A stretch of DNA of 52,274 nt, taken from Bacteroidales bacterium (lineage in GTDB: Bacteria > Bacteroidota > Bacteroidia > Bacteroidales > UBA932). Position 1 is the stretch's first letter. Every line of letters starts with the position of its first letter. Below the pieces are notes generated by a model that worked only from the letters and a program-made list of their open reading frames with translations, was not told where the DNA came from and searched no databases. Of this stretch, positions 13,675 through 34,979 are shown in pieces. Both the position numbers and the translations under genes were made by a program. The DNA lies in NCBI GenBank assembly GCA_017549145.1, contig JAFYVM010000054.1:1-52274 (forward strand). The letters are read 5' to 3'.

Positions 13675-14988
13675 ATGAAACAAGCATTAAAACTATATTT
13701 GGTAACAGATCGTGATCTCTCATTGGGAAGATCACTGGAAGAAGTCGTACGCGAGGCTGTTGCGGGCGGAGTAACCATGGTCCAGCTACGCGAAAAGGAC
13801 GCTGCTACCGGAGAGTTCATAGAACTAGGCAGAAGACTCATGGCTGTGCTGAAGCCACTTGGCATTCCCCTCATTATCAACGACAGGGTGGATGTGGCAT
13901 TGGCAGTGGATGCTGACGGAGTGCACATCGGTCAGAGCGATATGGCGTATGCTGATGCACGCAGATTGCTCGGTCCTGACAAGATAATCGGTCTGTCAGT
14001 GGAAAACATGGACGACCTACTCAAGGCCAATGAATTGGATGTAGACTATATCGGCATTTCGCCTGTCTACGGTACACCTACCAAGACAGATACGGCTGAG
14101 CCGTTCGGTCTAGAAGGCTTGAAAGAAGCAGTAAGACTGTCATTGCATCCGACCGTGGCTATCGGAGGAATGAACAGACATACTGCAGCCGATGTTATGG
14201 CGACAGGATGTGACGGTATCGCTGTTGTGAGTGCAATTTCTTCAGCAGAAAACATCAAGGAGGCAACTACAGAGCTGAAGGAAATCGTAGATGCAAATGC
14301 AAAAGAGAGCTGGTGTCAACAGATATGGAGGCTGTCCAACAAGATATATAAGGAGATTCTGGGGCTTGAGTTCATCGCAGATCTCTCTGACGGAAGCCTT
14401 GACAAGGATATATTTTCAAGATACATAGCGCAGGATGAAATATACCTGGGAAACTATTATCGTAATATGTTTGCACTCGCTGACATGATGGACGATGCTT
14501 CTGACAGGACATTATTCCTTTCATTTGCAAAGGACGGCATGGAGGGCGAAAAGGCTATGCACGAGCTGCTTATCGAGAGATATGGAATGGATATCAATGT
14601 GGAGTCGTCCGTGGTCACAACAGGATATAACAAGCTTATTCAAGATGCAATAAATAGCGGAAATAAATATTATGCACTGGCAGTTATGCTGCCTTGTATG
14701 TGGATATACAACCGCGTGGGGCTGCATATTCTCAAAACCTCAAATCTGAAGGACAATCCATACAAAGAATGGATCCTGGAATATGGTAACGAAGAGTTCT
14801 CTAATGGAACCAACAGAGTTCTCGAAATTATTGACAGTTGGGCAAAGGAGGTAGATGAGGCAACAATTCAGGAGATGAATCGCCTGTATCTTATGGCGGC
14901 TCTATATGAATATGCATTCTGGGATTATGCCTATTGTGGTGATGCGAAGTCGTACGAATACACAAAATCATTGGAAGGATGGCTATGA
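13675..14988 (+). CDS. thiE-tenA: ThiE-TenA fusion: thiamine-phosphate synthase plus TenA aminohydrolase
   Basis: A 437-residue two-domain cytosolic enzyme. Residues 1-208 are ThiE, which joins HMP-PP and thiazole phosphate: LYLVTDR, TMVQLREKDA, INDRVDVALAVDADGVHIGQ, YIGISPVYGTPTK and VAIGGMN are the usual (beta/alpha)8 motifs. Residues about 214-437 are TenA, a helical aminopyrimidine salvage hydrolase: AQDEIYLGNYYR carries the catalytic Asp, LPCMWIYNRVG the catalytic Cys (about residue 341), and EYAFWDYAY the C-terminal Glu. The join has no stop or start between the domains and a short linker rich in Ala, Lys and Glu. It would couple pyrimidine salvage to thiamine assembly. The gene follows the thiM remnant by 2 nt and overlaps thiL by 4 nt (ATGA). 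Confidence 0.93.
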   Translation: MKQALKLYLVTDRDLSLGRSLEEVVREAVAGGVTMVQLREKDAATGEFIELGRRLMAVLKPLGIPLIINDRVDVALAVDADGVHIGQSDMAYADARRLLGPDKIIGLSVENMDDLLKANELDVDYIGISPVYGTPTKTDTAEPFGLEGLKEAVRLSLHPTVAIGGMNRHTAADVMATGCDGIAVVSAISSAENIKEATTELKEIVDANAKESWCQQIWRLSNKIYKEILGLEFIADLSDGSLDKDIFSRYIAQDEIYLGNYYRNMFALADMMDDASDRTLFLSFAKDGMEGEKAMHELLIERYGMDINVESSVVTTGYNKLIQDAINSGNKYYALAVMLPCMWIYNRVGLHILKTSNLKDNPYKEWILEYGNEEFSNGTNRVLEIIDSWAKEVDEATIQEMNRLYLMAALYEYAFWDYAYCGDAKSYEYTKSLEGWL

Positions 14989-20004: not shown

Positions 20005-21003
20005 ATGAAGACAATATATCTAGCAGGAGGGTGCTTCTGGGGCACTGAACATTATATCAGACAATTCGAGGGTGTACTCGAGACTGTCGTCGGATATGCC
20101 AACGGCAATATCCCCAATCCATCATACGAACAGGTCTACACAGACCAGACAGGATATGCGGAATGCGTAAAAGTAACCTACGATGAGCATATACTGCCAC
20201 TCAAGACCCTCCTCAAGCTATATTTCAGGTCAATAGACCCGCTTTTGAAGAACCGTCAAGGCGGAGACGTCGGCACAAGGTACCGAACCGGAATATATTG
20301 GTCAGATGGAGCAGATAAAGAAACTGCGAATGAAGTCTATGATGAGGTTCTGTCAACATACGAGGCAGATGGTCACAGCGAGCTTGCAGTCGAACTACGT
20401 CCACTGAAATGCTTCTATCCGGCGGAAGACTACCATCAGGACTATCTGATAAGGAATCCTGAAGGTTACTGCCACATATCACTCACTACACAGCACTTTG
20501 CCAGGACTTTCGCAAAGCTCACCAAAGAGCTGAAAGCAGCAGAAGGACATGAGCAGCCTCTTGAAAAAGAAGAAAAATACCGAATTCTCCTGGAGTATAT
20601 CTCACAGCTCTCCAAACTGGACTACAGTCTCAGAGACAAACTTACAGACATTTCGTTGATGATTCATCATACCTTTGGATTCTGGTGGACTGGATTCTAT
20701 CTCGTAAGTGGAGATCATCTCATTCTGGGACCATATCAGGGCCCACTCGCCTGCCTTCGCATTGCATATGGACGAGGAGTCTGCGGAACAGCGTGGAAAG
20801 AGGAAAGAACAATAGTAGTTCCGGACGTGGAAGAATTCCCGGGACACATCGCCTGCAGCAGTGAATCCAAGAGCGAAATTGTCGTCCCGCTTCATTCCAA
20901 CGACGAAATTGTAGGAGTCCTTGACATAGACAGCGAAAAGCTCGCAACTTTCGATAATATCGATGCTCTCTGGCTGGAACGCATTGTGGAGTTGATTCAT
21001 TGA
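20005..21003 (+). CDS. msrA: MsrA fused to free-methionine-(R)-sulfoxide reductase (GAF domain)
   Basis: A 332-residue fusion that would repair both stereoisomers of oxidised methionine. Residues 1-160 are MsrA, specific for Met-S-sulfoxide: AGGCFWGTEHYIRQFEGV with catalytic Cys10, VGYANG, and PAEDYHQDYL. Residues about 190-332 are a GAF-fold fRMsr, specific for free Met-R-sulfoxide: FWWTGFYL, LACLRIAYGRGVCGTAW and HIACSSESKSEIVVPL. Its three Cys at about 250, 260 and 284 have the same spacing (10 and 24) as the functional Cys84, Cys94 and Cys118 of the E. coli enzyme. The usual fusion partner of MsrA in many bacteria is MsrB, so this pairing is uncommon. It has its own promoter. Confidence 0.93.
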   Translation: MKTIYLAGGCFWGTEHYIRQFEGVLETVVGYANGNIPNPSYEQVYTDQTGYAECVKVTYDEHILPLKTLLKLYFRSIDPLLKNRQGGDVGTRYRTGIYWSDGADKETANEVYDEVLSTYEADGHSELAVELRPLKCFYPAEDYHQDYLIRNPEGYCHISLTTQHFARTFAKLTKELKAAEGHEQPLEKEEKYRILLEYISQLSKLDYSLRDKLTDISLMIHHTFGFWWTGFYLVSGDHLILGPYQGPLACLRIAYGRGVCGTAWKEERTIVVPDVEEFPGHIACSSESKSEIVVPLHSNDEIVGVLDIDSEKLATFDNIDALWLERIVELIH

Positions 21004-21072
21004 CATCAGCAAGTACACACTTTTTTCTTTGGCAAAATTTGCATATATTCACATCCTCTAAATTAGATAAAA

Positions 21073-24000
21073 ATGAATACTGTTGCGCAAACATGCCTTA
21101 ATAACGTAGATTTGGTACTTCAATATATTGAAGCCCAAGAGAAAATAGATTCGATTACCAAAGACTATGACCAGCAGATAAGTCAAGCTCATAAAACAAA
21201 GGAGCAACACTCTTTGAATATGTCTGAACAACAAATCATGAACGAATTCGAAAGAGTGGCTAAAATCATGACAAATAACCTGCGTGCAAGATATCAAGCA
21301 CAATACAATGTGGAGGACGAAAAATTCAAAAATCTCATATGCGATTATTCGTCATATATCAAACAGAAGAATTCCTTAGTGGAGGAATACACTAGGGAAA
21401 TTCCAAGGCTTGAAAAGTTGTATAACGAACTTAATCAGAGATATGAGAAAATCAGCAAAGACCTTACCAGTGATGTATACCCATTAGTAAGAAAACTATC
21501 TGCCAGCAAATATAAGGAGATAACAGACAATCCAATCACAGAAAATCTAAACACGCATTTCCGGTATTTAAAGGACAACGTCAAGGAAATTCCCGAAGAA
21601 AACATTAGTATTTTATCTGGCGGTAAGACAATATCCAAAAATGACTTTCTAAACAAGTACATCCCGACATATAACGTTAAGAATGAGGATAAATATCCCG
21701 AGGAATTAAAAATCACTATTATATTTCCTAACGGCCTGAAAGGTTCGATTTTCAAAAAAATGAAATCGCGCGAACTTGAACAGATTGAGATATTTCAAAA
21801 TTCGTTCAATAGCTACTTAAAGAAATGGTGTGCAGCCGAAAACTACATGTGCCTCTTCAAGTATCATGACGTCAATGGTATATGCAACCGTCTAGATATG
21901 ATGAAAGGTAAGCTCCCTACACTAAAAAAAGAAGTGAGAGAGTACGAAAATAAACTTTCTAAAATAGAGAAACAGCATAAGGATTTCATCGCCATAAGAG
22001 ACATCAGACGTTACATCGATTCTGGCTACCTTAAAAATTTGACAAAGCAGGAAGTAGAAGAAGTTAAGCGCAAGAGTTTGAAAGAGGCAGCTTCTAGACT
22101 CGCAATAAAAGAAGATGACCTACTTGACTATATTGCCTGCAGCGAATCCAATGAAAATTTCGTTTTTTTCCAAACAGCATGTTTTAAGGAGCGTGCTAAG
22201 AAATATATTGAATCCAGCAACAGGAAACAATCTCACATTGCTATATTAGAGACAGAGAAGGCTCAAAAATTATCAGCAATAAAAATTCCAAACCTGGAAT
22301 TGATTTTCAGAAAATGGAACGATGAGTATCCTCTTTATGCTCAGATGGGTTTTCCGGAGCAGATGGATCAGGAAAGTGTAGAGAAAACCATGGAGGCAAT
22401 AGCTCGTACTGCCGCCAAGAATTATGGACTTAAGATTTTCCCTAACGGAGATTGCTTCCATCTGCCAACTGCAAGTGGATTAGCAAAAAACGCTAAGGGA
22501 GAATATTTATGGGCTCCTTCATTCAGCTCACCTAACGGAAGTATTCCGAATTTGATGCTTGCCTATAGCAAAGAAACCATGGTTGAAGCTAAGCAGTCAC
22601 TGAACCGAGCGCTTATCAACCTACTTCTCTCCGTGCCTCCACGTAAGGCCAAACTGCGCATCATTGATTTAGCAGCCACTAATATGGCATCCTTGATAAC
22701 CACACGTCTAAGCCCTTCTCTTTACAATAATGAGGTTGTGATGAATGACAGGGAGCTTCGCAGTGTTATCGAAGAATGGCAGGCAAGAACAAAGCGCATA
22801 ATGCAAAAGTGCGAAAACCTGGCCCAATACAACGAACAAAACAAGACATGGCTCGAGCCATATGAAATCGTTGTCGTTCTCGGATATCCTCAGAGCATAT
22901 CACCAAACTGCGAAGACATGCTTCGTCCGTTTGTACAGAATGGTGCAAAATCAGGCATCTACTTTATTTGGGTAACAAACACTGATATGCTGCAGGAAAA
23001 CAGCCAGTCAATCATCAAGGAAAAGGGACTTTTCAAAACTGTGCTTCCATTCATTCCTCGTGGAAAGTACTTCCCTTATCCATACACTCCGATTGCAGAC
23101 CAGAAACAGCTGCTGGATTATACCTTCGAATACCTCAACGCCGAGGCTTGCAAGAAAGAGGAAAAACCAATTGCCGTACAGGATGTCCGCCAATTGGCAG
23201 AAAGACCATATCAACCAGACACTGCAGCCAACATCAAAGTTGCTGTCGGCGATGACAACGGACGCAATGTCTACTTCGAATTAGACACATTAAACCACCT
23301 ACATGCCTTTATCCTTGGTCAATCAGGAACTGGAAAATCGCGTTTCCTGCATAATATCATAGGAAACATCATGCTGGCTCATAGCCCGCAAAATGTTGAG
23401 CTCTACCTTATGGACCTCAAGTTAGGAGGAGTGGAATTCAATGTATATAAGGGTGAGAAGCATGTAAAAGCTCTTCTTGTAGATAATAACGACCGTCAGA
23501 TTACGCTCGAGGTGCTCAGAGACCTAAGCATGCGTATGGAACAGAGAAACAAGGAGTTTGCTGAAGCTGGAGTGCGTAATCTTGAAGCATACAACCAAAA
23601 GGCAGGTACGCCTATGCCTCAGATAGTATTGGTCGTCGATGAGTGCCAGATGCTGTTTACTGAGCGTCCGGACAATACAGAAAGAGAGCTTCGCGACATT
23701 CTATCTCTTATCGTGAAGCAGGGTCGTAGCCAGGGCGTCCACATGATACTCTCGACACAGACACTGATGAATTCAACAATTCCTATCGATGTGCTTCAGG
23801 GTGCCGGACTTACTGATTTCTATCTATTGAACTGCGACCCACGCGACTCCGAGAAACTTGTCAAAGGCAGCAGTGCTAAGACTGGCACGCTCCAGACTGG
23901 TGAGATTTATTATCACCATCATCAGCATAGCGCTCCAGACGCACAGTTCAGAGCATTCTATGTGGATGACGAGCAGCAGAATGCGATATTGGAAGGAGCT

Positions 24001-24951
24001 ATTCAGAAGAGCAAGGATCTGGATGCCCCTGGTCAATTCTATTTCAGTGGTAAGTTACAGGCACATTTGTCAGAGGAGGTCATCTCATCAATGCAGCGTC
24101 GTAGCAGAAGATCACTCTGCGCATCATTCGGTGTCGGTATCGACCTTAAGCAGCAGCCTGTCAACATTTCCCTCTCAGAAGAGCAGGGAGAGAATGTGCT
24201 CATCTTCGGACTTAACCAGAGACATCAGGCAACTCGTACTGCAACGGAGACATTCCTCTCAGCACTATATTCTGCACGTGCAGCTGGCAGAGATACTGAA
24301 TTCATTGTAATTGACTGTCTCTCATCAGAGGATGAGACCCCATATCAGATATTGTTCGACTCACTCGAAGACCAGGGACTGATCCGTCAGGTTTTCGGAA
24401 GACAAAGAGGCGAACTTCTCTCAAAACTGGGAGACTCTGTACGCTCACACAAGGCAAATGAAACACTGATTCTTATTTTGGGTCAGGATAGATGGAGAGA
24501 ACTTCGCAACGACAAGGAGCTTGAAGTGGCTCAGACTGGAGTGGAGCAGAAACCTGCCGAAGGAGCATCTTTCCTCGGAGGACTGTCATTCCCTTCAAGT
24601 CGAACACAACAGCGCACCTATCGCAGTGAGCTTCAATATCTGCTCGAGAATGGTGCAGAGGATGGAGTACACTTCATAGTACAGGTTGACAAGCCACAGA
24701 ATCTGATAGGTGGACAGAATGTTTCACAACAGATGGTCAAGAAACTTTTCCGTCACTGGATCATGCTACGCTCTGCTGCAGATGCGTCATTGTCGCTTCG
24801 TCTGAGAGACGACATCAGACTTGAGAACCTCTCTGACGATTTGGATCGTCTGCGTGCAATTTACTATTGCGACGACACGGATTCATATCAATTGATTACC
24901 CCGTACCGTTACACAACAGAAGAAGAAAATAAGAATTTGATAAACCTTTAA
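21073..24951 (+). CDS. FtsK/SpoIIIE-superfamily ATPase, EssC/EccC-like, with coiled-coil N-terminus
   Basis: A 1292-residue protein. Residues 1-430 are charged and largely coiled-coil. About 500-680 look like a degenerate ATPase-fold domain (KLRIIDLAA, EIVVVLGYPQS, GIYFIWVTNT). An intact FtsK/SpoIIIE module follows: Walker A GQSGTGKS at about 750, Walker B IVLVVDE at about 853, then QGRSQGVHMILSTQTL and TDFYLLNCD. A third module (about 1030-1280) keeps the fold (VLIFGLNQR, FIVIDCL) but has lost the P-loop. Serial FtsK-like domains with one strongly conserved site are the plan of EssC/EccC, the motor of type VII secretion. Differences are no obvious transmembrane helices and no FHA domains. 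Four bases later begins a small gene with a WXG100-like turn, and two more small helical genes follow. The alternative is a soluble AAA machine of unknown role. Confidence 0.8.
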   Translation: MNTVAQTCLNNVDLVLQYIEAQEKIDSITKDYDQQISQAHKTKEQHSLNMSEQQIMNEFERVAKIMTNNLRARYQAQYNVEDEKFKNLICDYSSYIKQKNSLVEEYTREIPRLEKLYNELNQRYEKISKDLTSDVYPLVRKLSASKYKEITDNPITENLNTHFRYLKDNVKEIPEENISILSGGKTISKNDFLNKYIPTYNVKNEDKYPEELKITIIFPNGLKGSIFKKMKSRELEQIEIFQNSFNSYLKKWCAAENYMCLFKYHDVNGICNRLDMMKGKLPTLKKEVREYENKLSKIEKQHKDFIAIRDIRRYIDSGYLKNLTKQEVEEVKRKSLKEAASRLAIKEDDLLDYIACSESNENFVFFQTACFKERAKKYIESSNRKQSHIAILETEKAQKLSAIKIPNLELIFRKWNDEYPLYAQMGFPEQMDQESVEKTMEAIARTAAKNYGLKIFPNGDCFHLPTASGLAKNAKGEYLWAPSFSSPNGSIPNLMLAYSKETMVEAKQSLNRALINLLLSVPPRKAKLRIIDLAATNMASLITTRLSPSLYNNEVVMNDRELRSVIEEWQARTKRIMQKCENLAQYNEQNKTWLEPYEIVVVLGYPQSISPNCEDMLRPFVQNGAKSGIYFIWVTNTDMLQENSQSIIKEKGLFKTVLPFIPRGKYFPYPYTPIADQKQLLDYTFEYLNAEACKKEEKPIAVQDVRQLAERPYQPDTAANIKVAVGDDNGRNVYFELDTLNHLHAFILGQSGTGKSRFLHNIIGNIMLAHSPQNVELYLMDLKLGGVEFNVYKGEKHVKALLVDNNDRQITLEVLRDLSMRMEQRNKEFAEAGVRNLEAYNQKAGTPMPQIVLVVDECQMLFTERPDNTERELRDILSLIVKQGRSQGVHMILSTQTLMNSTIPIDVLQGAGLTDFYLLNCDPRDSEKLVKGSSAKTGTLQTGEIYYHHHQHSAPDAQFRAFYVDDEQQNAILEGAIQKSKDLDAPGQFYFSGKLQAHLSEEVISSMQRRSRRSLCASFGVGIDLKQQPVNISLSEEQGENVLIFGLNQRHQATRTATETFLSALYSARAAGRDTEFIVIDCLSSEDETPYQILFDSLEDQGLIRQVFGRQRGELLSKLGDSVRSHKANETLILILGQDRWRELRNDKELEVAQTGVEQKPAEGASFLGGLSFPSSRTQQRTYRSELQYLLENGAEDGVHFIVQVDKPQNLIGGQNVSQQMVKKLFRHWIMLRSAADASLSLRLRDDIRLENLSDDLDRLRAIYYCDDTDSYQLITPYRYTTEEENKNLINL

Positions 24952-24955
24952 TTAT

Positions 24956-25237
24956 ATGTCAGCAAATGCAAGTGTTAAAAGCGTCGATGAACTACGCGCT
25001 TTTTCGTCATATCTGAAGAATCTCAGTGCAAATCTCACTAATGAGTTCGCCAACGCTCAGCGCGAAATGTTCCGCGTAAACGAAGGATGGAACGATGAAG
25101 AGAATATGAAATTCATGCAGGAGTTCGAACAGACTGTACAGATTATAAACAGGATTTCTGAACACATGAATGAATATGGTTCTTTCATCCAGAAGAAGTG
25201 TGACATCCTGGACCTTTATATGAGTACTCGCCTATAA
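24956..25237 (+). CDS. WXG100-like small helical protein (WND variant)
   Basis: A 93-residue protein predicted to be a helical hairpin: an N-terminal helix to about residue 40, a turn with G-W-N-D (Trp45), and a second helix from about 48 to 90. Length, two-helix shape and Trp position are close to ESAT-6/WXG100 proteins, where the turn is W-x-G at about residues 43-45; here the Gly is replaced by Asp. It has no signal peptide or Cys pair. It starts 4 bp after the ATPase stop, so it is certainly co-translated with it. The most direct reading is a substrate or adaptor of the ATPase. The C-terminus DILDLYMSTRL lacks a clear YxxxD/E export signal. Confidence 0.7.
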   Translation: MSANASVKSVDELRAFSSYLKNLSANLTNEFANAQREMFRVNEGWNDEENMKFMQEFEQTVQIINRISEHMNEYGSFIQKKCDILDLYMSTRL

Positions 25238-25249
25238 TAACAATCCGAT

Positions 25250-25735
25250 ATGGCCTCAGATGCACAAGTAAGGGAAGTCGAGAGTCTGTACATGCTCAGA
25301 TCAGACATTTTGAATGCCGTCAATTCACTCAGATCGAGCCTGTCATCCGCTGCTCAACGTGTCAATTCCGAAAGCAGTGAGTTGATGGGGTTGTTCAATG
25401 AGGTAGACGCAAGATGTGAGAGATGCAAAGATGAATATTATGCAGCTCAGCAGGAGTACGACTATTATTGTTCACAATCGTCTTCAGACCCTGACTACTC
25501 CAGCTATACAGAAAGTCAGCTTCGCCAAGCAGTAGAAAATGCACGTACAAGGATGAATCAGGCTATACACGATTTATATCATGCCCAAAACCTTATAAGC
25601 CAGGCGCAGCAAGTACTTTCCAGCATCCAGTCATTGGCTCAATCTGGAGCTGTTTCCATTGACTCCGAAGCATCAGGGATTGCCTCAGCAATAGAGCGAG
25701 CCGCATATGAAATAGATAAATACACTCAAGATTAA
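25250..25735 (+). CDS. Helical/coiled-coil protein of the FtsK-WXG locus, unknown function
   Basis: I do not recognise this 161-residue protein. It is rich in Ser, Ala, Gln and Glu and should form long helices: about 5-80 and 88-160, separated by a Tyr/Ser-rich stretch (DYYCSQSSSDPDYSSYT). Three Cys lie within about 20 residues of one another (EVDARCERCKDEYY and YYCSQ). There is no signal peptide or transmembrane segment. The gene sits 12 bp after the WXG-like gene and 14 bp before a second one, so all are in one operon with the ATPase. It may be a partner that binds the small WXG-like proteins or a larger substrate with an LXG-like helical domain; both are inference from position. Confidence 0.65.
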   Translation: MASDAQVREVESLYMLRSDILNAVNSLRSSLSSAAQRVNSESSELMGLFNEVDARCERCKDEYYAAQQEYDYYCSQSSSDPDYSSYTESQLRQAVENARTRMNQAIHDLYHAQNLISQAQQVLSSIQSLAQSGAVSIDSEASGIASAIERAAYEIDKYTQD

Positions 25736-25749
25736 ACAAAGCTAAAAGA

Positions 25750-25965
25750 ATGGATTCAGAAATTCAGCAAATAGCAGAGAATGCACAGCGACTGGAGTCG
25801 TTATCTTGTGCATACTCATCAGGATGGAACGACAATGTGTCTGAAAAAGTGTTTGGAGCTATCTCAACATTAGCTTCAAACGCAACATCAATCTCATCAC
25901 AGCTATGTGCATATGTCTCTATATTGAACAGCATCAAGGCAGAGCTATCAAGCCTGGCCAGATAA
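25750..25965 (+). CDS. Short WXG100-like helical protein with G-W-N-D turn
   Basis: A 71-residue protein with a first helix of about 22 residues, the turn SSGWNDNVSEKVF (Trp26) and a second helix to the end (SILNSIKAELSSLA). The G-W-N-D motif is identical to the one in the first small protein of the operon, although the two are otherwise diverged. It is shorter than a typical WXG100 protein because the first helix is trimmed. It lacks a signal peptide. As the last gene of the ATPase operon it could pair with the 93-residue protein as a heterodimer, like EsxA/EsxB. Confidence 0.68.
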   Translation: MDSEIQQIAENAQRLESLSCAYSSGWNDNVSEKVFGAISTLASNATSISSQLCAYVSILNSIKAELSSLAR

Positions 25966-26107: not shown

Positions 26108-26518
26108 ATGATGGAAAGAATTTATCAATTAGTAGCATGTACAAGTAATATAGCCGACAAGGAGAACTCTAGGCTATATTTACATCCTACCCTTGAGTGC
26201 GAGCTTAGATCAGCACTTATTAATGACATTGCTTATATTCATAAGGAAGAGTATAAGCATAATGGTGCCATTAGTCTTGAGTTAGCCCTGAAGGCTATCA
26301 GAGCAGAGGAAAGAATGGCCAGATTTTATATCCTTACAGGACGTATTGGTTGGGGTATAAGATACTTGTTCTTCGCAGCTAAGTATGCTTACTTGAAAAA
26401 GGAGCTACGACACGAGTTTGTAAGACTTTGTGATAAGGCTGTGTACCTTGCAAAGAAATACAACAGAGAGGATGTTCTTCAGGAAAGCAATCCTAAATTT
26501 TGCCTATCTGTAGGGTAA
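26108..26518 (+). CDS. Hypothetical helical protein
   Basis: I do not recognise this 136-residue protein. It is basic and mostly helical, with many Arg, Lys, Ala and Glu residues (SLELALKAIRAEERMARFYILTG, IRYLFFAAKYAYLKKELRHEF). One mildly hydrophobic stretch around residues 80-95 is too polar to be a sure membrane helix. It has no metal or nucleotide motif. It has its own promoter and 142 bp separates it from the FtsK-WXG operon, so a link to that system is possible but weak. Two in-frame ATGs (26108 and 26111) are equally likely starts. A symmetric terminator follows. Confidence 0.7.
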   Translation: MMERIYQLVACTSNIADKENSRLYLHPTLECELRSALINDIAYIHKEEYKHNGAISLELALKAIRAEERMARFYILTGRIGWGIRYLFFAAKYAYLKKELRHEFVRLCDKAVYLAKKYNREDVLQESNPKFCLSVG

Positions 26519-26572: not shown

Positions 26573-29275
26573 TTATTTTGCCTGATAAGCACCTGGCTGG
26601 TAGTCACCAGTACGTGTCTCACCACGACCATCCTTGAACACCTTAGTGTCACCTGACTCAGTAACCTCACCGATTGCCTTAAGCCAGTTGTAGAAGTCAG
26701 CACCAAAGTTATCAACGCCTACTGTAGCATTAGCATCAGTACACTCTGAAATAGCAGTATAAACGTCAGCTGCAGTAGCTGGAGTAAATCCTGTCAAGCT
26801 GTTTGTCCAAGAGTAAACGCCATTACCGTAAGTACCTGCAAGAGTCTCAGCTGAGATTGACTTAAGGTCAGTAGCAGCCAAAACAGCCTTATCATGATCG
26901 CCAGCACAGCTCATTACATTGTGGCCATAGTCCTTGTAAATATCTGTTGACCTAAGCAAGAAGAGCTTATCTGGATTCATTGTATTAATCATGATGTTGT
27001 TGCAGAGAGTAACCTTTGAAGTTCCATTAGCACGCAAGAGCTGAGGGGTCTTATCAATGATTGTCGAGTTAACGATAAGCCAACCACCATCACTGTTGAA
27101 AGATGGCATTGTTACACCTGTCTCGAGGTTTACATTGTAGTTATTGTAAGATGTAACGTTATTCATACATACGTAAGCATTACCTGCATGAATTGCCACA
27201 CCATACTGGTTACCAGCCTTCATTGTCTTATTCTCATGGAATACAACGCGGTTCATATAAAGCATTGTGTTAGCTGTTGGGTTGATCATACCACGAGTAT
27301 CACCCTCATTAGCATCGAATACACATCTGTTCAAGTAAAGCTTCTCACCAGCCTTCTCCATCTTGATACATCCGTGGTTAGCGTATGCCTTATTGTTGAG
27401 GAACTGACAGTCTGTACATGATACTGTACATACGTCGTTCACATGAAGAACAGCTGAACTGTTCTGAACAATGTTAGCCTTGAAGATACAGTTCTCGAAC
27501 TCGATGTTTCCGTAAGCGATCTGACAAGCACCACCGTTGAAGTTACCGTTTTTACCGTCCTTATCCTTAACCGAACCATCATGATTTGCTCCAGAACGAC
27601 AAATAATATCATGGAAGTTACAGTTAGTAAACTTACCAGCCTTAGGCTCTGTAGCAGTACCTAAGTATATAGCGACAGCTCCACCATTTCTTGCACGTCC
27701 ACCAGTAAACTCGCAATTGTCGACATTGAAGAGATCGGCAGATTTTACATAAATAGCAGCACCATTTGAGTACTCAACGGCTGAACCATCCTCCTCTTTA
27801 CCTGCCTCATTGTCTGCAAACTTAACATACTTAAGATCAACCTTAGTATTGTCACCGATCCACATTGCACCACCGTTACCCCCAGCCTTAGCTGTAGTAA
27901 GAGTGTTATTGTTAGCGAAGAGAACAGGAGCGCTGCTAGTACCAGTCACGTAAAGCTCACCAAATGACATGATACAACCACCGTGATACATAGAAGTATT
28001 AGCTGTGAATGAACCGCCGTTGATAGTAAGCTTAGCACCAGTCTTTGTAGATACGATAGCTCCACCGCTACCAGTTACAGCCTGGTTCTCAGTTACAGTA
28101 CAGTCATTAAGAGTACATACAGCAGCATCATTGCGAAGAATGATTGCACCACCTACGTTAGGAATTGAAGTACCACCGTTCTCATTAGTAGTTACAGGCT
28201 GAGTTCCTGTATTCTTAGCGAATGTACAGCCATTGAATGTAGCTGTTGCAGTCTCAAGGCTGACAGCACCACCGTAAGGAGCTGTATTCTCATTGAATGT
28301 ACAGTTTGTAAAAGTCGAGACTGCGCCCTCTCCATTTGAGTGGAAAGCTCCACCACCCCATGAGCCAGCTTTATTCTTAGTGAATGTACAGTTCTTGAAC
28401 TCAACTTCCTTACCACCGTTCTGAACGGCACCTGAAGTGTTAGCTGTTTCGTTAGTCTCAAAAGTACAATCCTCAACAACAACTGCACCTCTACCAGCAT
28501 TCATATTGATTGCCGAACCGTTTCTTGCAAAGTTGTTAGCGAAATAGCAGTTTTTGATTTCAGCTGCGGCATTTACCAAATAGATACCAGCACCGGTCTT
28601 ACCCTCAGCATTTCTGTTAGCTGTGAACTTACAGTTTGTAAGAGTAACCTTACAGTCACCTGTCTCACCTGCACTTGCGTAAACAGAACCGCCATTATCA
28701 GTGAAAGCACCATTCTTGAATGTGAAGCCGTCAAATGTAACATCAGTCTGATTTCCAAGTTCCAAGATACCAGTAAGATTGTCACCTGTGAACTCTGTTA
28801 CGTTAGCAGCTGCATCACGACCAGTTGTTGCCTTCTCAGTCAAACCTGCTGGATAACCACCAAGAACTGTAAGAACTACAGGTTTAGTGTAGTTGCTGAA
28901 CTCAATCTTTACAGGTATATAAGACTCACCTGCAAGGAAATACTCACCAGCTGCAACGTGAACTGTTGTTCCGTCGAGCAAAGCAGCCTTAGCATGAGCA
29001 TCTGCATCAATCTGATTGCCCTCTGCATCTACTGGCTGAGCAAGGAAAGCGTTAAGCTCAGCTACGCCCATTGCGTTCTCCCAATCCTTACCAGTCTTTT
29101 CACCGGCACCAGCTACTGTTACGAACCAATCAGTAATAACCTCAGGAGCAGGTTCCTCACCTGGATCTTCTCCTGGATTCTCAGTAGGATTATCCTGTGG
29201 ATTGTCCACCACTGGCTTTTCACATCCTACAAGAGGAAGGAGTGCTACCGCACACAATAAAAGAATTTTTTTCAT
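26573..29275 (-). CDS. PMP-like right-handed beta-helix surface lipoprotein
   Basis: A 900-residue protein with lipobox LLPLVGC (Cys18), an acidic Pro/Glu/Asn/Gly linker to about residue 45, and a head WFVTVAGAGEKTG...DWENAMGVAEL shared with three other proteins of the locus. The body is a long series of beta-helix coils with repeated FxxN and GGA motifs (CTFNENTAPYGGAVSLE, CTFAKNTG, GGAIILRNDA), which is the pattern of chlamydial Pmp-type repeats. The end has FGADFYNWL and a short tail YQPGAYQAK, again common to the family. There is no autotransporter barrel, so it should be lipid-anchored. No catalytic site is apparent; adhesion or polymer binding is the likely role. It lies 29 bp after the larger GDPD-beta-helix gene. 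Confidence 0.82.
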   Translation of the reverse strand: MKKILLLCAVALLPLVGCEKPVVDNPQDNPTENPGEDPGEEPAPEVITDWFVTVAGAGEKTGKDWENAMGVAELNAFLAQPVDAEGNQIDADAHAKAALLDGTTVHVAAGEYFLAGESYIPVKIEFSNYTKPVVLTVLGGYPAGLTEKATTGRDAAANVTEFTGDNLTGILELGNQTDVTFDGFTFKNGAFTDNGGSVYASAGETGDCKVTLTNCKFTANRNAEGKTGAGIYLVNAAAEIKNCYFANNFARNGSAINMNAGRGAVVVEDCTFETNETANTSGAVQNGGKEVEFKNCTFTKNKAGSWGGGAFHSNGEGAVSTFTNCTFNENTAPYGGAVSLETATATFNGCTFAKNTGTQPVTTNENGGTSIPNVGGAIILRNDAAVCTLNDCTVTENQAVTGSGGAIVSTKTGAKLTINGGSFTANTSMYHGGCIMSFGELYVTGTSSAPVLFANNNTLTTAKAGGNGGAMWIGDNTKVDLKYVKFADNEAGKEEDGSAVEYSNGAAIYVKSADLFNVDNCEFTGGRARNGGAVAIYLGTATEPKAGKFTNCNFHDIICRSGANHDGSVKDKDGKNGNFNGGACQIAYGNIEFENCIFKANIVQNSSAVLHVNDVCTVSCTDCQFLNNKAYANHGCIKMEKAGEKLYLNRCVFDANEGDTRGMINPTANTMLYMNRVVFHENKTMKAGNQYGVAIHAGNAYVCMNNVTSYNNYNVNLETGVTMPSFNSDGGWLIVNSTIIDKTPQLLRANGTSKVTLCNNIMINTMNPDKLFLLRSTDIYKDYGHNVMSCAGDHDKAVLAATDLKSISAETLAGTYGNGVYSWTNSLTGFTPATAADVYTAISECTDANATVGVDNFGADFYNWLKAIGEVTESGDTKVFKDGRGETRTGDYQPGAYQAK

Positions 29276-29304
29276 AATAAATTAAATTGGTTATAGTTGA
29301 AAAA

Positions 29305-32300
29305 TTAATGTTTCTCGTATGATCCCGGCCACATTGCTGCAGAATTACGGGCGTTACCGGCCTGGTCAAGAGCAAGTGGATTCTTGCCACCACCGAATTC
29401 TTGGAGCCAATTATAGAACTCAAGTCCCACATTGGAATACGGACCTGCTGCTCTATTGCATTTGGTCTTGACTGCATCTTCCACTACTGAAAGACTAGCC
29501 TGGGTAAATCCAGACACCTGTCCACTCCACTGATAATATCCCTCATCATACCACCTCATTCCCAATCCCGAGAGCGTACATTCTGTCTTATCTGAATCAG
29601 AGGGATAGTAATTCTCATTATTGGTTCCTGTAAGATTGTAACCCAAAGAAGTCACATTGTAGCTTGTACCATTCACATGCACACTAGTATAGCCGTCAAA
29701 TAGCATGATTGTATTGAGCAGTGCAGCGGTACGGTCAGTTCCCGACTCATTTCTGAATGTCATATTCGCACCAGATGTAGACGAGACATAATCCGCAACT
29801 ATTGTAGAATTTACCAAGAGCCAGTTACCGCTGCCATTCAATACGCCATAATGTCCGTCATTGCAGGCAATAGTTGTATTGTTGGCAAGGAAAGATCCGC
29901 TAGTCACATGCACTGCGCTTCCGAATCGATCCGTAATAGCATTATCGTGTACAGCACAAGCATTTAGGAATATAATACCAGTTCCCTCTGCAATTCGAAG
30001 CGCACCGCCACGCGAATACGCCTGACAGTCGTATATCTCGCAATTATCAAGAGTTGCGAGAGAGTTCTTTCCTGCCCAAACCGCACTTCCCCCATGGTAT
30101 TTCGTATCAGAATCTTTATATCCGTAAATATCATGGAACACGCAATTGGTCAAATCAACCCTAGCCTGGGCTCCGGAGGTAGAAGAGTTAAGCATGAAAG
30201 CCTTCTGATCCCATCTCGAAACTCCGTATGAATGAGCGAAGGTCACGCCGTCAACCTTAAAATAAACGAATCCGTCCAAGCAGAATATACCACAGTCATC
30301 GGCATCAGCCTTGCCGTTACCGTTAAGGTCTGCATTGAACTCGGTAATATTTACTGCAGGATCCCTCTTTAAAAGGTCTGTTCCCTTGCTTGTCGAATCA
30401 TAACCTCCAAGAATAGTTACCTTGCACATCTTGCCGTAATTGGTGTACTTCATATAGACATTGCCTTCCTCTGGAGTGGCAATACAATATTCACCTTCCA
30501 TAAAATGGAATACAGAGCCATCAAGACGTCCACATTGTCCGTAGCTACTGCCAGTATCATCAGAGGCTACCAGTTTCCTCCACTGCTGCAGTCCCATTGC
30601 ATCATCCCAAGAATCTCCAGTCATGGCACCTTTGCCTTCTGGAGTCACAAAATAATCCCTTGGCTCGCTTGCATAAGGATATCCATCAAGCACATCTACC
30701 AGCTTGTCAGACACATCTGTCTGGATTATGCGCGTAGACGGAAAATACTCGAAGAGTTGCTCCAGTTTATCAATCTCCACATAGGACGAAGACACACCGT
30801 TCAACATATTGACCGTACATATCATACCCTGCGACAATGCCGCTCCCAGGCTTGGCTCAGTATCAGGATTGTAGGTATACTGTACGAAATGTTCACCAGG
30901 CAACTGCTTCAATGCAGCGTAATATGTATTCCATGAATAGGCATGAGCATATGGGTTAATATTTCCAACCTCATTGACCTTCGCTGTCGAGTTGCAATAA
31001 AACAGCACCTGCTCCATCATACCAAGTTCCTGGACAACAGCCATCACCTGCGCAGTAGAAGCCGTACGAGGAGAATAGTCAAGGTTAACATAGACTTTAC
31101 CACGCGCTGCCTCAAGGAATTCCGCCAACGTAGGCATCATCTCAGTGGTTGCCTTGCCATTCCTGTCCTTGAGTTTATAACTACGGATCTGAGCGAGAGT
31201 AAGATTTGAGATATTTCCCGTACCTGTTGTAGTTCTGCTGATAGATTCATCATGACAGATTACGATATTGCCATCTGCTGTAAGTCGGGTATCAGTTTCA
31301 ACCATCTGCACTCCGGCTGCATATGCCGCCTGGACTGCAGGGATTGAGTTTTCAGGTATGGATTTGTCAGAAGTATTCGCCCTATGAGCCATCACCCACA
31401 CATCTGTGCACTCCCCTGTCTTGAACCTTCTTGCAACCTCAGTCAAGGCAGTCAGAGAGTAGACATATATATCACGGGTAACTGTTTGTCCATTACTGCT
31501 GAGTGCAACTGTGTATGTCTTATCAACACCGGACTCATTGACAAACTGGTGCTGAATAGAGCTTGGAGCAGTAAACACTTCCACAGGCGAGCCGTCTCCC
31601 CAATCTATAGTAACCTTCTTTCCTTCAGGAATATTGCCATAAGAGACAGCCACCTTCTCCATATTATACGCCATAGCAGGCAGAACAAGCTGCGGGAGAT
31701 TCATTTCAATTCGTGGAAATGCTTTCATGCATCCGCGAGTAAATGTTCTAGGCGAAGATGTGATTCTTTGCGAGCCTTCAATAACCACTCCATCCTTATC
31801 CAAAAGCTTAATATCGAACAACTTATACTCACCAACAGGAAGTGGAATATATACGGTGGCAAGAGATTGCGCCTGTTGAAATTCCACGACAACTCTACTT
31901 TCAGCGACATCAGCAGCACTTTGGCACTCCACACACGGCTCGTCACTAGAGAGATTGAGCACGAACGCACCATTTATCTTGTTACCGGCAGAGTCATCAT
32001 CTTGAGATTGGGCTGTCAGAACAAGACTTGCGCCTTCAGGGACATCAGCAACCTCAACCTTAAAGATTCCGACAAGATGTCTGAATAACATATTGTTGTC
32101 CGAATCCACAACTGCAGACATTATAGCATTTGCCTGTCCCTCTAAATAGACATATGATTCAGGGAGATTAAGGGTCAGAACAGTTCCGTCAATAGAAGAT
32201 GCGACGGATGCAGGATATACAGCAACTGCTTCGGCTGAAGGCTGCACAGAACCAGTGAATTTACCATTACTGGTACCACCTTCGGCGACAAGATGAAAAG

Positions 32301-32526
32301 ACGAGAACTCCGAATCCGAAATCTGGACTGCAATCTGGTCGCCCTTAGTCCATGCATAGTTCACCTTTCCTGAATGAGAGTCAGCTAGGGCCCCAACCTT
32401 GACATCCGACTGTTCAACGACGGCGTTCAGTACAACAATATTTCCTTCTACAGATGCATCAATTTTCTCCTCGACGCAAGCAACACCAAAGAGCATTACA
32501 ATAAGTAATATAAATATCCTTTTCAA
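29305..32526 (-). CDS. Fimbrillin-like / PKD-like / GDPD / beta-helix fusion lipoprotein
   Basis: A 1073-residue lipoprotein (lipobox FGVAC). Regions: about 25-275 resembles the N-terminal half of fimbrillin-type proteins; 280-360 is PKD-like (TIDWGDGSPVEVF); 370-615 is a glycerophosphodiester phosphodiesterase with MAHRANTSDKSIPENS (His near 380), METDTRLTADGNIVICHDESI, VNLDYSPRT and a C-terminal QTDVSDKL; 622-1073 is the shared beta-helix with YFVTPEGKGAMTG, an EF-hand-like DLNGNGKADADD, GGALRIAEGTG coils and tail FYNWLQEFGGGKNPLALDQ. All usual GDPD catalytic residues are present. It would cut glycerophosphodiesters at the cell surface while the beta-helix holds the polymer. A terminator and a promoter element upstream make it the first gene of a two-gene unit. 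Confidence 0.85.
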   Translation of the reverse strand: MKRIFILLIVMLFGVACVEEKIDASVEGNIVVLNAVVEQSDVKVGALADSHSGKVNYAWTKGDQIAVQISDSEFSSFHLVAEGGTSNGKFTGSVQPSAEAVAVYPASVASSIDGTVLTLNLPESYVYLEGQANAIMSAVVDSDNNMLFRHLVGIFKVEVADVPEGASLVLTAQSQDDDSAGNKINGAFVLNLSSDEPCVECQSAADVAESRVVVEFQQAQSLATVYIPLPVGEYKLFDIKLLDKDGVVIEGSQRITSSPRTFTRGCMKAFPRIEMNLPQLVLPAMAYNMEKVAVSYGNIPEGKKVTIDWGDGSPVEVFTAPSSIQHQFVNESGVDKTYTVALSSNGQTVTRDIYVYSLTALTEVARRFKTGECTDVWVMAHRANTSDKSIPENSIPAVQAAYAAGVQMVETDTRLTADGNIVICHDESISRTTTGTGNISNLTLAQIRSYKLKDRNGKATTEMMPTLAEFLEAARGKVYVNLDYSPRTASTAQVMAVVQELGMMEQVLFYCNSTAKVNEVGNINPYAHAYSWNTYYAALKQLPGEHFVQYTYNPDTEPSLGAALSQGMICTVNMLNGVSSSYVEIDKLEQLFEYFPSTRIIQTDVSDKLVDVLDGYPYASEPRDYFVTPEGKGAMTGDSWDDAMGLQQWRKLVASDDTGSSYGQCGRLDGSVFHFMEGEYCIATPEEGNVYMKYTNYGKMCKVTILGGYDSTSKGTDLLKRDPAVNITEFNADLNGNGKADADDCGIFCLDGFVYFKVDGVTFAHSYGVSRWDQKAFMLNSSTSGAQARVDLTNCVFHDIYGYKDSDTKYHGGSAVWAGKNSLATLDNCEIYDCQAYSRGGALRIAEGTGIIFLNACAVHDNAITDRFGSAVHVTSGSFLANNTTIACNDGHYGVLNGSGNWLLVNSTIVADYVSSTSGANMTFRNESGTDRTAALLNTIMLFDGYTSVHVNGTSYNVTSLGYNLTGTNNENYYPSDSDKTECTLSGLGMRWYDEGYYQWSGQVSGFTQASLSVVEDAVKTKCNRAAGPYSNVGLEFYNWLQEFGGGKNPLALDQAGNARNSAAMWPGSYEKH
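29312..29385. repeat. Near-identical 3' end shared by two beta-helix genes (copy A)
   Basis: 74 bp at the 3' end of the GDPD-beta-helix gene match 32668-32741, at the 3' end of the neighbouring beta-helix gene, with 5 differences. This includes 42 identical bases in a row. The proteins differ much more elsewhere, which points to recent gene conversion or a selected C-terminal tail. Confidence 0.85.
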
Positions 32527-32545
32527 AGCATCGTAGTTTTACAGA

Positions 32546-32553
32546 CAAATATA
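32546..32553 (-). promoter_or_regulatory. Candidate -7 element of the GDPD-beta-helix gene
   Basis: TATATTTG on the minus strand (32553-32546), about 20 bp before the ATG at 32526, matches the -7 consensus. No good TTG is present at the expected distance. Confidence 0.45.
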
Positions 32554-32602
32554 CATTTTTTATATCACATAACACCCGAGATAGCCGTTTAATTTAACAC
32601 AA

Positions 32603-32635
32603 AAGACCCCCCGGCGATAAAGCTCGAGAGGTCTT
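32603..32635 (-). terminator. Terminator after the 772-residue beta-helix gene
   Basis: Outer arms aagacc (32603-32608) and ggtctt (32630-32635) close a stem whose inner part is G/C-rich with imperfect pairing. On the minus strand it is followed by tttgtgtt. It lies 26 bp after the stop codon and separates two transcription units. Confidence 0.6.
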
Positions 32636-32660
32636 ATATTGAGAATATCAGTTCAACCGA

Positions 32661-34979
32661 TTAGTTCTTCTCGTATGCACCTGGCCACATTGCTGCGGTA
32701 TTACGGGCGTTACCGGCCTGGTCAAGAGCAAGTGGATTCTTTCCTGACTCAAGTCCCTGCAACCAGTTGTAGAAGTTTGCACCGAGAGATGTTGACTTAA
32801 CTACAGCCTCTACATCTGAAAGCTTAGCTGCAGTAAATTCTGGAACAGCACCGCTCCATGTGTAGTATCCATTGTTCCAAGTCAAGCCGAGACCTGAGAC
32901 AGTCATAGAAGACTTATCAGAATCATGGGCAACAAATGTACCTGGGCTGATTGATGTATCTGTACATACTGTGCCGTAAAGGTTGTATCCCTTAGATGTA
33001 AGGATTCTATTTTCACCAGATGCAACAACGATACTTGGTTTGTCACCCTCGAAGAGAGCAATTGAATTTACCATGATAGCATCATTTGTTCCGGCAGTAG
33101 ACTCATTTCTGACAGTCATATTGCGTGAATCATCACTTGATAGATGAGAGTTGATAATTGTAGAGTTTACAATCATCCAGTTACCACCACCATTGAGGGC
33201 ACCACCGGCACCAGTATTCTTGGCAACTGTACAGTTGTTCATGGCGAGGTTTCCGTTAGAGATCTGGATTCCGTTACCCCATACATCGTTGACCTTATTG
33301 CCGTATACAGCACAGTTATTCATATATAGAACTGATGACGCATCAACTGTTCTGATTGCACCACCACGTGAAGTGGATATACATCCTGTGAAATCACAAT
33401 TGTGGATTGTTACTGTTGATGCCTTGCATACCCAGATAGCAGTTCCTCCCTGATATTTACCATCATTGTCCTTATATGCATCCAGATCGTAGAACTTACA
33501 GTTAACAAGATTCAAGAGTACTGATGCTCCTGATGTGTCTGTATTAAGCATGAATGCTTTCTGCTTCCATCTATCAATTCCTACTGCATGTGCAAATGAA
33601 CATCCGTCAAAAGTAACGAAGCAATACGCATCGAGACAGAAGATACCAGTATCACCAGAATCAGCTTTACCATTGCCATTAAGGTCACCGGTAAACTTAG
33701 TCTCGTAAGTCTTAGGATTTCTGTTTGTAAGATCCTGACCTGAGCTAGAAGCTGCATATCCACCAAGGATAGTGAAGTTACATGCCTTGCCATAATTCGG
33801 GAACTGAATCTTCAGACGATTCTTCTCTGATGTAGTTGTGCAGTAACTTCCCTGCTTGAAATAGAAGGTCTTACCATCGATAGCCTCACACTGCTCAGCA
33901 GTCTTGGCACTGTAATCTGAGCTGATCATAGCACGGAACTCTGCAATACCCATTGCATTGTCCCATGAAAGACCACTCTTGTCACCGGCACCTTCTACAG
34001 AAACGAAGTATCCTACGAATGGCACAGATGGCTGCTCCGGCTCTTCAGGCTGCTCTGGAGTATCAGGATTTTCAGGGTTCTCAGGGTTTTCTGGCTCATC
34101 TGGCTGTCCTGGCTGATCTGGATCTACTTCTGGATTTTCAGGAACATCATCAGAAGGAAGAGCCTCATTCCAGCATGTAACCTCAGGCTGGCTCAATGTA
34201 AGAGATGAGCTTGAAACTGTTACAGTATAAGAATATGCGTTTCCTGCTTCGAATTTTGGAATACCACCTGTCTTCAATGACTTTCCGTTGTATGTCAAAG
34301 TCACAAACGGAATCTTTGAAGAAGCTGGTCCTGGGATAACGAGGGCAGTATATACACTTCCCTTTTCACCTGCAGGAATATCAGCAGTCTCAACATATGG
34401 AGAAATGCTTGTGCTTCCACTTGGAGCACCATCCTCTATTACAGAGTAAGAACCGATCTTGAATGACTGTACCTTCTGACCTGTAGAAAGACCAGCAAGC
34501 TTGACTGTAACCTTAGCCATTCTTCTGTGGAGAACGATTTCTACGTCCTCTCTGTACTTGTCAACTGCCTCACCAGTCATGTAGTCAGATGCCACAAGGT
34601 TATCAAGAGAGTACTGGTTAGGTCTTACAGCGAACTTGTCGTATCCGCTGCTTTTGTTGACAGGATAGTAAGCTCTGAAAGTTACAGGATCTGTATTCCA
34701 ACGGAAATAATAACGGTCTGTCGGATTCCATCCTGTGCTCGATTTATAGTATTCAGCTACAAGGTCTGGAGTAAAGATGCAAACCTTGTCATTGAATGAG
34801 AACTGTCTAAGTTCTTCTCCTGTTGCAAGCGGAGAAGACTTAGTGCTGTGCTCACAGCCGATGACAGCAGAGAGCTTTACAGCCTCACTGTCCTCATTGT
34901 AATAAATCTGCTCCTTTCTTGTCGCGCAGCCAGCCAACATAAGAAGTGCTGCTGCATATGCTATATTTCTAAATTTCAT
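32661..34979 (-). CDS. Fimbrillin-like plus beta-helix surface lipoprotein
   Basis: A 772-residue lipoprotein with lipobox LMLAGC (Cys18). Residues about 25-275 look like the fimbrillin-type fold used by Bacteroidales pili and related lipoproteins (WNTDPVTFRAYYPV, ADIPAGEKGSVYTALVIPG). Residues 277-322 are an acidic Pro/Glu/Asp/Asn linker with repeated PENPENP and PEQPEEPEQ units. Residues 325-772 are the beta-helix family module: YFVSVEGAGDKSG head, EF-hand-like DLNGNGKADSGD, coils such as CDFTGCISTSRGGAIRTVDA, and tail FYNWLQGLESGKNPLALDQ. No enzyme motif is seen. It is probably a surface binding protein of the SusCD system. It starts 11 bp after the preceding gene's stop and ends before a terminator. 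Confidence 0.8.
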   Translation of the reverse strand: MKFRNIAYAAALLMLAGCATRKEQIYYNEDSEAVKLSAVIGCEHSTKSSPLATGEELRQFSFNDKVCIFTPDLVAEYYKSSTGWNPTDRYYFRWNTDPVTFRAYYPVNKSSGYDKFAVRPNQYSLDNLVASDYMTGEAVDKYREDVEIVLHRRMAKVTVKLAGLSTGQKVQSFKIGSYSVIEDGAPSGSTSISPYVETADIPAGEKGSVYTALVIPGPASSKIPFVTLTYNGKSLKTGGIPKFEAGNAYSYTVTVSSSSLTLSQPEVTCWNEALPSDDVPENPEVDPDQPGQPDEPENPENPENPDTPEQPEEPEQPSVPFVGYFVSVEGAGDKSGLSWDNAMGIAEFRAMISSDYSAKTAEQCEAIDGKTFYFKQGSYCTTTSEKNRLKIQFPNYGKACNFTILGGYAASSSGQDLTNRNPKTYETKFTGDLNGNGKADSGDTGIFCLDAYCFVTFDGCSFAHAVGIDRWKQKAFMLNTDTSGASVLLNLVNCKFYDLDAYKDNDGKYQGGTAIWVCKASTVTIHNCDFTGCISTSRGGAIRTVDASSVLYMNNCAVYGNKVNDVWGNGIQISNGNLAMNNCTVAKNTGAGGALNGGGNWMIVNSTIINSHLSSDDSRNMTVRNESTAGTNDAIMVNSIALFEGDKPSIVVASGENRILTSKGYNLYGTVCTDTSISPGTFVAHDSDKSSMTVSGLGLTWNNGYYTWSGAVPEFTAAKLSDVEAVVKSTSLGANFYNWLQGLESGKNPLALDQAGNARNTAAMWPGAYEKN
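32668..32741. repeat. Near-identical 3' end shared by two beta-helix genes (copy B)
   Basis: Partner of 29312-29385: 69 of 74 bases agree and the run from about 32700 to 32741 is identical. Confidence 0.85.

Follow-up and report, generated by a model that had tools for sequence, protein, structure and literature searches.

The window analysed here is a stretch of 52,274 nucleotides that forms one whole contig of a Bacteroidales draft assembly (78 contigs, 2.35 Mb, 83% complete). It carries a four-gene operon at positions 21073-25965, in which a gene for an FtsK/HerA-type ATPase is followed by three small genes that we named W1, LX and W2. An initial annotation, made from the sequence alone, had described genes of 1292, 93, 161 and 71 codons spaced by 4-14 bp, and the open reading frames (ORFs) are exactly so, with gaps of 4, 12 and 14 bp between ATPase, W1, LX and W2. 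The features of the operon are the following.

21073..24951, plus strand: ATPase of 1292 residues, FtsK/HerA type, kin of EccC/EssC, probably with three modules (ORF, NCBIfam, PDB profile)
21073..22392, plus strand: N-terminal region of the ATPase, residues 1-440, by eye charged and coiled-coil-like
22510..23172, plus strand: ATPase module 1, about residues 480-700, probably degenerate, without P-loop (alignment of seven loci)
23170..23847, plus strand: ATPase module 2, about residues 700-925, active-type (PF01580, P-loop, Walker B)
24028..24951, plus strand: ATPase module 3, residues 986-1292, probably degenerate, with GLNQRHQAT at the P-loop position (profile)
24956..25237, plus strand: W1, 93 residues, predicted WXG100-type hairpin with W-N-D in the turn (PF06013, family profile, AlphaFold2)
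25250..25735, plus strand: LX, 161 residues, probably the short variant of a helical carrier that is longer in relatives, with no C-terminal effector domain (hhalign)
25750..25965, plus strand: W2, 71 residues, second W-x-D protein (PF06013 genome search, hhalign)

The best NCBIfam matches to the ATPase were TIGR03924 EccCa (2.7e-27), TIGR03928 EssC (4.3e-25) and EccCb (1.4e-21), the EccC/EssC matches being best over the central domain, and the FtsK match was weaker (3e-8). Because the equivalog cut-offs were far from reached (95.8 versus 509 bits), the ATPase is kin of EccC/EssC and not an orthologue. A comparison with EssC/EccC had been proposed at the outset, and when a profile of seven ATPase loci (A1) was searched against the PDB, the EccC chains came ahead of FtsK. 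The matches were 4nh0 (3.6e-57), which is listed as FtsK/SpoIIIE and which we take to be an EccC, EccC5 (7b9f, 4.5e-49), YukB (1.1e-40) and FtsK (2ius, 3e-27). In a tree of the core domain, ten FtsK-type rows formed a clade with 100/100 support that left the window ATPase outside, and the window paired at 100/99 with Bacteroidales bacterium SW299 (L046, genome G453; L161 has the same genes).

The single intact P-loop claimed by the initial annotation, GQSGTGKS, lies at residues 749-756 (23317-23340), and no second [GA]xxxxGK[ST] occurs in the ATPase. PF01580 covers residues 709-897 (3.7e-26). The Walker B residues of module 2 are D856-E857, R885 lies beyond them, and G752, G754, K755, S756, D856, E857 and R885 are invariant in seven of seven aligned loci. 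Degenerate modules on both sides had also been claimed. The regions of about residues 480-700 and 986-1292 are alignable across the seven loci and have no P-loop, and they are matched only weakly, so the claim is likely. The core ATPase profile gave weak second matches on the module 1 part of L046 (12.6 bits) and L047 (10.1 bits) and 22.5 bits on the module 3 part of L048, and the top PDB match of the module 3 profile (A8) was the second module of EccC5, with a marginal E of 0.056. The ATPase therefore likely has three modules with the middle one alone active. The module 3 profile also picks out this ATPase family in genome searches. Residues 1-440 matched no family above its cut-off. The G+C content is 0.346 at 21000-21999, the N-terminal part of the ATPase gene, versus about 0.47 upstream; this dip may come from how the charged N-terminus is composed, or that part may have originated separately.

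The G-W-N-D noted earlier in two of the small proteins was found in W1 (W45, D47) and W2 (W26, D28). When all six frames of the 2.35 Mb genome were searched with PF06013, just two matches at E<=1 were obtained, and these were W1 (0.0021) and W2 (0.142), both below the curated cut-off. Matches at E<=1 are commonplace in themselves, occurring in 13 of 14 control genomes; what counts is that both lie in this operon. By our arithmetic, two randomly placed matches would fall on W1 and W2 with a chance of roughly 5e-9. A profile (A3) was built from 11 W1-type proteins, chosen partly for having W, and D stands at +2 after W in 10 of these rows. Its 12 best matches among 177,635 distinct PDB sequences were rows of EsxB, EsxA, SAG1039, gbs1074 and HP0062 (5.3e-7 to 6.1e-5), with EsxB at 5.3e-7, EsxA at 2.6e-6 and HP0062 at 5.6e-5; SAG1039 and gbs1074 are presumably streptococcal WXG100 proteins. 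Unrelated coiled coils entered the list from about E 0.005-0.006. The AlphaFold2 model of W1, made from five sequences, had a predicted local distance difference test score of 88.2, with helices at residues 10-41 and 48-92 and with W45 and D47 in the interhelical turn. Trp45 had been placed almost where W-x-G stands in ESAT-6, and a fold other than a helical hairpin had been named as evidence against the link with type VII secretion. W1 is predicted to be a WXG100-type helical hairpin with W in the turn, although the motif is W-N-D instead of W-x-G.

Profile-profile comparisons with hhalign were controlled by 60 shuffles and a reversed profile. The W1 set (10 rows) scored 67.6 against WXG-type proteins of Helicobacter, Caballeronia and Rhodococcus (shuffles <=17.0, reversed 16.3), and the W2 set (5 rows) scored 40.1 against the W1 set (shuffles <=19.3, reversed 17.3), which makes W2 a relative of W1. 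The W2 set matched the three WXG proteins more weakly, at 20.1 (shuffles <=14.5, reversed 17.8). PF06013 matched the WXG protein of the Caballeronia relative at 30.8 bits, above the cut-off of 27.3. As controls, 79 further loci of the viral collection (1.17 Mb, including L081, which is probably a relative in its own right) gave the W profile no match with E below 0.04, and 53 FtsK loci of Bacteroidota with short flanks (0.19 Mb) gave it none below 1. A chance likeness of the W turns was rejected, and against it stand the genome-wide pair of PF06013 matches, the clean control loci and the hhalign score of W2 with W1.

The LX proteins of the window and SW299 aligned with five others (L047, L034, L088, L197 and L165, without those of L050, L048 and L164) at a score of 50.6 (P 1.1e-7) over 152 columns, collinear from residue 1, and 60 shuffles gave at most 16.3. 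The 161-residue gene was also considered as a third W hairpin and was rejected, having no tryptophan turn and aligning with the other LX proteins. LX has 161 residues in the window and 167 in SW299; longer forms have 262-520 residues in L034, L048, L197, L047 and L050, and 276 in L088. Ten LX proteins were considered (window, L034, L046, L047, L048, L050, L088, L197, L164, L165). An effector domain above the Pfam cut-off was present in two of them (L197 and L164), LX of L047 matched GNAT at 20.1 bits, marginally below the cut-off of 20.7, and none was found in the other seven, L046 being judged by length. An acidic loop with Cys (like C...D.D....DC..E) is common to LX of L034, L047, L050, L088, L165 and L197, spanning Bacteroidota and Betaproteobacteria; L088 retains the second Cys only, the window has one Cys left and SW299 none.

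Relatives of the ATPase were found at E<=1e-20 in five other genomes among 199 of the family, where the next match was at 9e-15 and those past it were at the ordinary FtsK level, and at E<=1e-16 in five other genomes among 393 of the order. The module 3 profile added two loci in the order, G459 and G267 (locus L197), and among 395 phylum genomes it found two, the window's own and SW299. The cassette was not seen in 18 other genomes of the genus. At most three candidates were scored per genome in the family and genus search, and two in the search that found G598 (E 6.8e-51), which has internal stops and was left out of the counts; absence in these searches is therefore weak evidence. With the window ATPase as single query, no relative was found in genome-contig or viral-contig scans; in the viral scans the L088 and L034 ATPases found the L088 contig only, and the L047 ATPase found nothing.

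Thirteen Bacteroidales ATPase loci were gathered, window included, and nine have a W gene near the ATPase (window, SW299, G500, G370, G279, G548, G053, G020, G267). The motif in G548 is W-Y-G, and three genes intervene between ATPase and W gene in G020. The order ATPase-W1-LX-W2 is conserved in the window, in SW299 and, with an extra gene, in G500, and in G370 and G279 a second small gene precedes LX. SW299 belongs to another family and its ATPase is about 30% identical to that of the window; all four of its genes are uninterrupted and in window order. Beyond these genomes, L088, a contig of the viral collection IMG/VR, contributes a locus in which four genes encode W-x-D, and next to TerD on a Rhodococcus plasmid lies a locus that encodes an 87-residue W protein (W profile E 1.1e-9). 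Some relatives are plasmid-borne. By eye, the second small gene has Y-x-G in place of W-x-D at L048 (3983-4252) and L050 (7542-7805).

Nuclease and immunity-type genes were found in two relatives. L197, found blind by module 3 alone (E 2.1e-11) and in no alignment, has two W1-type genes downstream (A3 profile 1.4e-14 and 1.8e-12), an LX of 309 residues with a C-terminal HNH domain (PF01844, 24.4 bits, cut-off 21.4), and after it a SMI1/KNR4 (SUKH-type) gene at 22.0 bits, below the cut-off of 25.4; a 73-residue W protein (A3 E 0.012) and a protein kinase are also encoded there. One of the two blind module 3 finds has a W gene (G267 yes, G459 no). On the Helicobacter plasmid L164 the gene order is WXG (24.0 bits, cut-off 27.3), LX-WHH nuclease (WHH 44.6 bits, cut-off 25.1), SMI1/KNR4 (29.1 bits, cut-off 25.4), a 77-residue protein and a shorter ATPase of 823 residues.

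The locus is not a canonical type VII secretion system (T7SS): it has W-x-D, no predicted transmembrane helix, no YukD and no EssB. The initial annotation had called it a distant, minimal relative of type VII secretion and not a standard secretion system, and both parts of this stand. From the NCBIfam and PDB profile matches that define the ATPase family, the WXG100 homology with the modelled hairpin of W1, the kinship of W2 with W1, the cassette in other Bacteroidales and the nuclease and immunity-type genes of two relatives, we consider it rather probable that the locus is a minimal, toxin-less T7SS-like module, for which export would be an extrapolation. W1 would serve as a co-factor and dock on the ATPase as EsxA/EsxB do on EssC/EccC, LX and W2 would form a substrate with its Lap-type partner, and hydrolysis by module 2 would drive the complex across the inner membrane, helped by a putative envelope partner. 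As LX of the window and SW299 has no effector domain, what is exported in these two would be either the LX-W2/W1 complex as such or some cargo whose gene lies elsewhere. It is tentative, and rather doubtful, that Bacteroidales have an envelope-crossing T7SS-like exporter with a three-module ATPase and without known T7SS membrane parts, whose window/SW299 subtype exports a bare LX-W2 complex of a structural or adhesive rather than toxic kind.

Several results weigh against the reading as a T7SS-like module. PF06013 matched W1 itself at E 5.6e-4 and 20.6 bits, short of the curated cut-off of 27.3, and W1 alone against the PDB gave HP0062 at E 0.23 as its best hit of this kind, behind ten unrelated rows. 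The reversed control of the LX comparison reached 33.0 over 39 columns, and LX homology is for this reason likely and not proven. LXG (PF04740) had no match in nine of the ten LX proteins, the nine scanned (L046 excepted); of the families against which the small proteins were to be compared, WXG100 structures were thus recovered with the W1 family profile and LXG was not with LX. No toxin or immunity gene was seen adjoining the window cassette. No W gene was seen in four of the 13 Bacteroidales ATPase loci (G163, G070, G459, G063). The initial annotation had treated ATPases without WXG-like neighbours as telling against the link, and such loci exist, yet nine of 13 do have a W gene; G163, G070 and G459 represent a different type, which has vWA-like genes (by eye) and 94-97-residue proteins without W, and the contig of G063 breaks off two genes past the ATPase, too early to show whether a W gene follows. 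The tree backbone does not settle whether the window family is sister to EccC/EssC, and the core profile gave three EccC-like yardsticks 85, 106 and 123 bits versus 77-105 bits for FtsK, two plasmid relatives outside the profile scoring 177 and 194 bits. That closeness and the PF01580 match favour the rival view that the ATPase is an ordinary DNA translocase of the FtsK kind and that the small genes next to it are unrelated. This is very improbable and was rejected: the genome has a better FtsK match elsewhere (C73, 175 bits), the PDB ranking and the tree set the ATPase apart from FtsK as described above, and the control FtsK loci had no W genes beside them. TsxB/YukD (PF08817) and EssB/YukC (PF10140) each had 0 matches in the genome, which is 83% complete; T7SSd likewise lacks TsxB/YukD (PMC11217815).

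Transmembrane segments were predicted from Kyte-Doolittle hydropathy (19-residue window, threshold 1.6), a measure on which buried strands can also score. No 19-residue window of the window ATPase reaches 1.6, in line with the earlier remark that it has no transmembrane helices, and no gene of the window's run has such a segment. Because this is the main point against export, we retain as an unlikely but real contender an intracellular conflict or stress machine, in which the ATPase would handle the W and LX proteins or nucleic acid, with no export, in TerY-P-like signalling or phage defence, and the toxins of relatives would act on their own cell. The SW299 ATPase itself has no transmembrane segment either, relatives stand beside vWA, PP2C, kinase, CARF (Caballeronia, as annotated) or TerD (Rhodococcus), by eye, integrase- and primase-like genes surround the SW299 cassette and phage-like head genes adjoin that of L088, and the ATPase matches the PADLOC model SspH at 1.5e-21, confined to the shared ATPase domain. 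A survey of neighbourhoods for membrane partners or toxins had been proposed, and it bears on this alternative from the other side. It yielded toxin and immunity genes in some relatives, ATPases that are hydrophobic over one stretch of their N-terminal part in L047, L048 and L050, and, overlapping the SW299 ATPase gene by 4 bp, a Sel1-repeat gene with a strong C-terminal transmembrane segment, but nothing of either kind in the window's run. A nuclease-tipped carrier with SUKH-type immunity is, moreover, the usual layout of cell-to-cell toxins, which is established knowledge (PMC3482391). A decaying toxin locus, in which the LX effector domain and immunity gene were lost and the rest is a remnant, would fit the short LX of the window beside the longer forms of five Bacteroidales loci and L088, as well as the missing immunity gene. 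It is improbable, as SW299, of another family and with so divergent an ATPase, has the same toxin-less four-gene form intact, which argues that this form is old and kept.

Other loci of the ATPase family differ in their surroundings. The vWA-type loci (L037 6302-7198, L038 5300-6530, L196 2614-3202) have runs of 94-97-residue proteins with a central G-x-P-x-E instead of W; some of these are touched by the W profile at E 0.004-0.05 and are perhaps a W-less branch of the hairpin family. On the Caballeronia plasmid L165 (2363-13122) the ATPase and WXG genes are accompanied by genes annotated as vWA, CARF, PP2C, kinase and AAA. Such signalling genes would suit a system set off by an alarm. In L088 (5050-14666) the cassette continues toward what by eye resemble genes for a phage head protease and a capsid protein, and it may be prophage cargo or lie at a prophage border.

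The other genes of the window are typical Bacteroidota content, for example fimbrillin-like and SusD. Upstream of the ATPase lies a fusion gene of MsrA (methionine sulfoxide reductase A) and GAF (20005-21003, plus strand), whose two halves match separate contigs in several sister species; no empty site was found by way of this gene, and 19 other window genes were unmatched in five sister loci. No Bacteroidetes-type promoter pattern was matched immediately 5′ of the operon, and no integrase was seen adjoining the cassette. A 136-residue gene (26108-26518, plus strand), which begins 142 bp past the cassette and was excluded from it, had no family match in Pfam, NCBIfam and PADLOC scans. Three consecutive large genes follow at 26573-34979 (minus strand), surface-type by eye, one with a GDPD domain and one with a fimbrillin-like domain; the C-terminal residues of the last two are by eye very similar. 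At 13675-14988 (plus strand) a gene appears by eye to fuse thiamine phosphate synthase to a TenA-like domain.

Bacteroidales are Gram-negative and a dominant gut order, whereas type VII export is best known from Gram-positive bacteria. A W-LX-W-ATPase cassette that comes with partners of nuclease and immunity type would give them a route of antagonism additional to type VI secretion, and it raises the question of how a machine of this kind would pass two membranes. The toxin-less four-gene subtype is small enough for rebuilding and direct testing.

Systems of this kind are already known, and in the literature seen they have hardly been studied; the present locus is a variant. Zhang et al. (2012), in footnote 6 of their Table 1, describe ‘mobile versions of T7SS’ that combine WXG with an ATPase of three modules, the middle one alone being active, and name Bacteroidetes (PMC3482391). 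The window resembles these in having W1 and W2 adjoining the ATPase and a sole P-loop, placed centrally within the conserved part, with outer modules that are weakly matched. The footnote concerns solo WXG domains (PMC3482391), whereas the window has two W proteins and LX in order, and some of its relatives, unlike that description, have a nuclease-tipped LX and an immunity-type gene. In Helicobacter pylori, HP0062/HP0066 have been described as a ‘WXG100 secretion system’, in work that also treats TerY-P islands (PMC4978471), and HP0062, whose gene clusters with one for FtsK/SpoIIIE, has been solved as a hairpin that carries W-R-D (PMC3397514). The likeness lies in the W-R-D hairpin in place of W-x-G, the FtsK/SpoIIIE neighbour and an HNH/EndoVII nuclease in a linked cluster (PMC4978471, PMC3397514). 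Helicobacter differs in being of another phylum, in the shorter ATPase of its plasmid locus and in having a nuclease carrier, which the window has not.

The survey of T7SS diversity by Garrett et al. (2024) describes T7SSa-j from Bacillota and Actinomycetota; it treats the system as Gram-positive, and ‘bacteroid’ is absent from its main text (PMC11217815). Among the matches listed, no such system of WXG or type VII secretion in Bacteroidota was found in titles or abstract openings of the open-licence literature. With the canonical T7SS the window shares an EccC/EssC-type ATPase and a WXG100 hairpin; the canonical systems also have LXG-type substrates with small partners and, near some, kinases and FHA (PMC11217815), the latter seen by eye only in relatives of the window. 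They are described with four predicted NTPase domains, where the window ATPase likely has three modules, with an ATPase bound to the membrane and, in most cases, with TsxB/YukD (PMC11217815). LX is comparable to LXG toxins, which have a conserved N-terminal domain, a variable toxic C-terminus and a small W partner (PMC5555719), and relatives of the window have an immunity gene as well; LX of the window has neither a Pfam LXG match nor a C-terminal domain. New in the present locus and its relatives are the W1-LX-W2 cassette conserved in Bacteroidales, the replacement of W-x-G by W-x-D, a Bacteroidales genome in which a nuclease-tipped LX goes together with a SUKH-type gene, and, in two families, a subtype of four genes that has no toxin.

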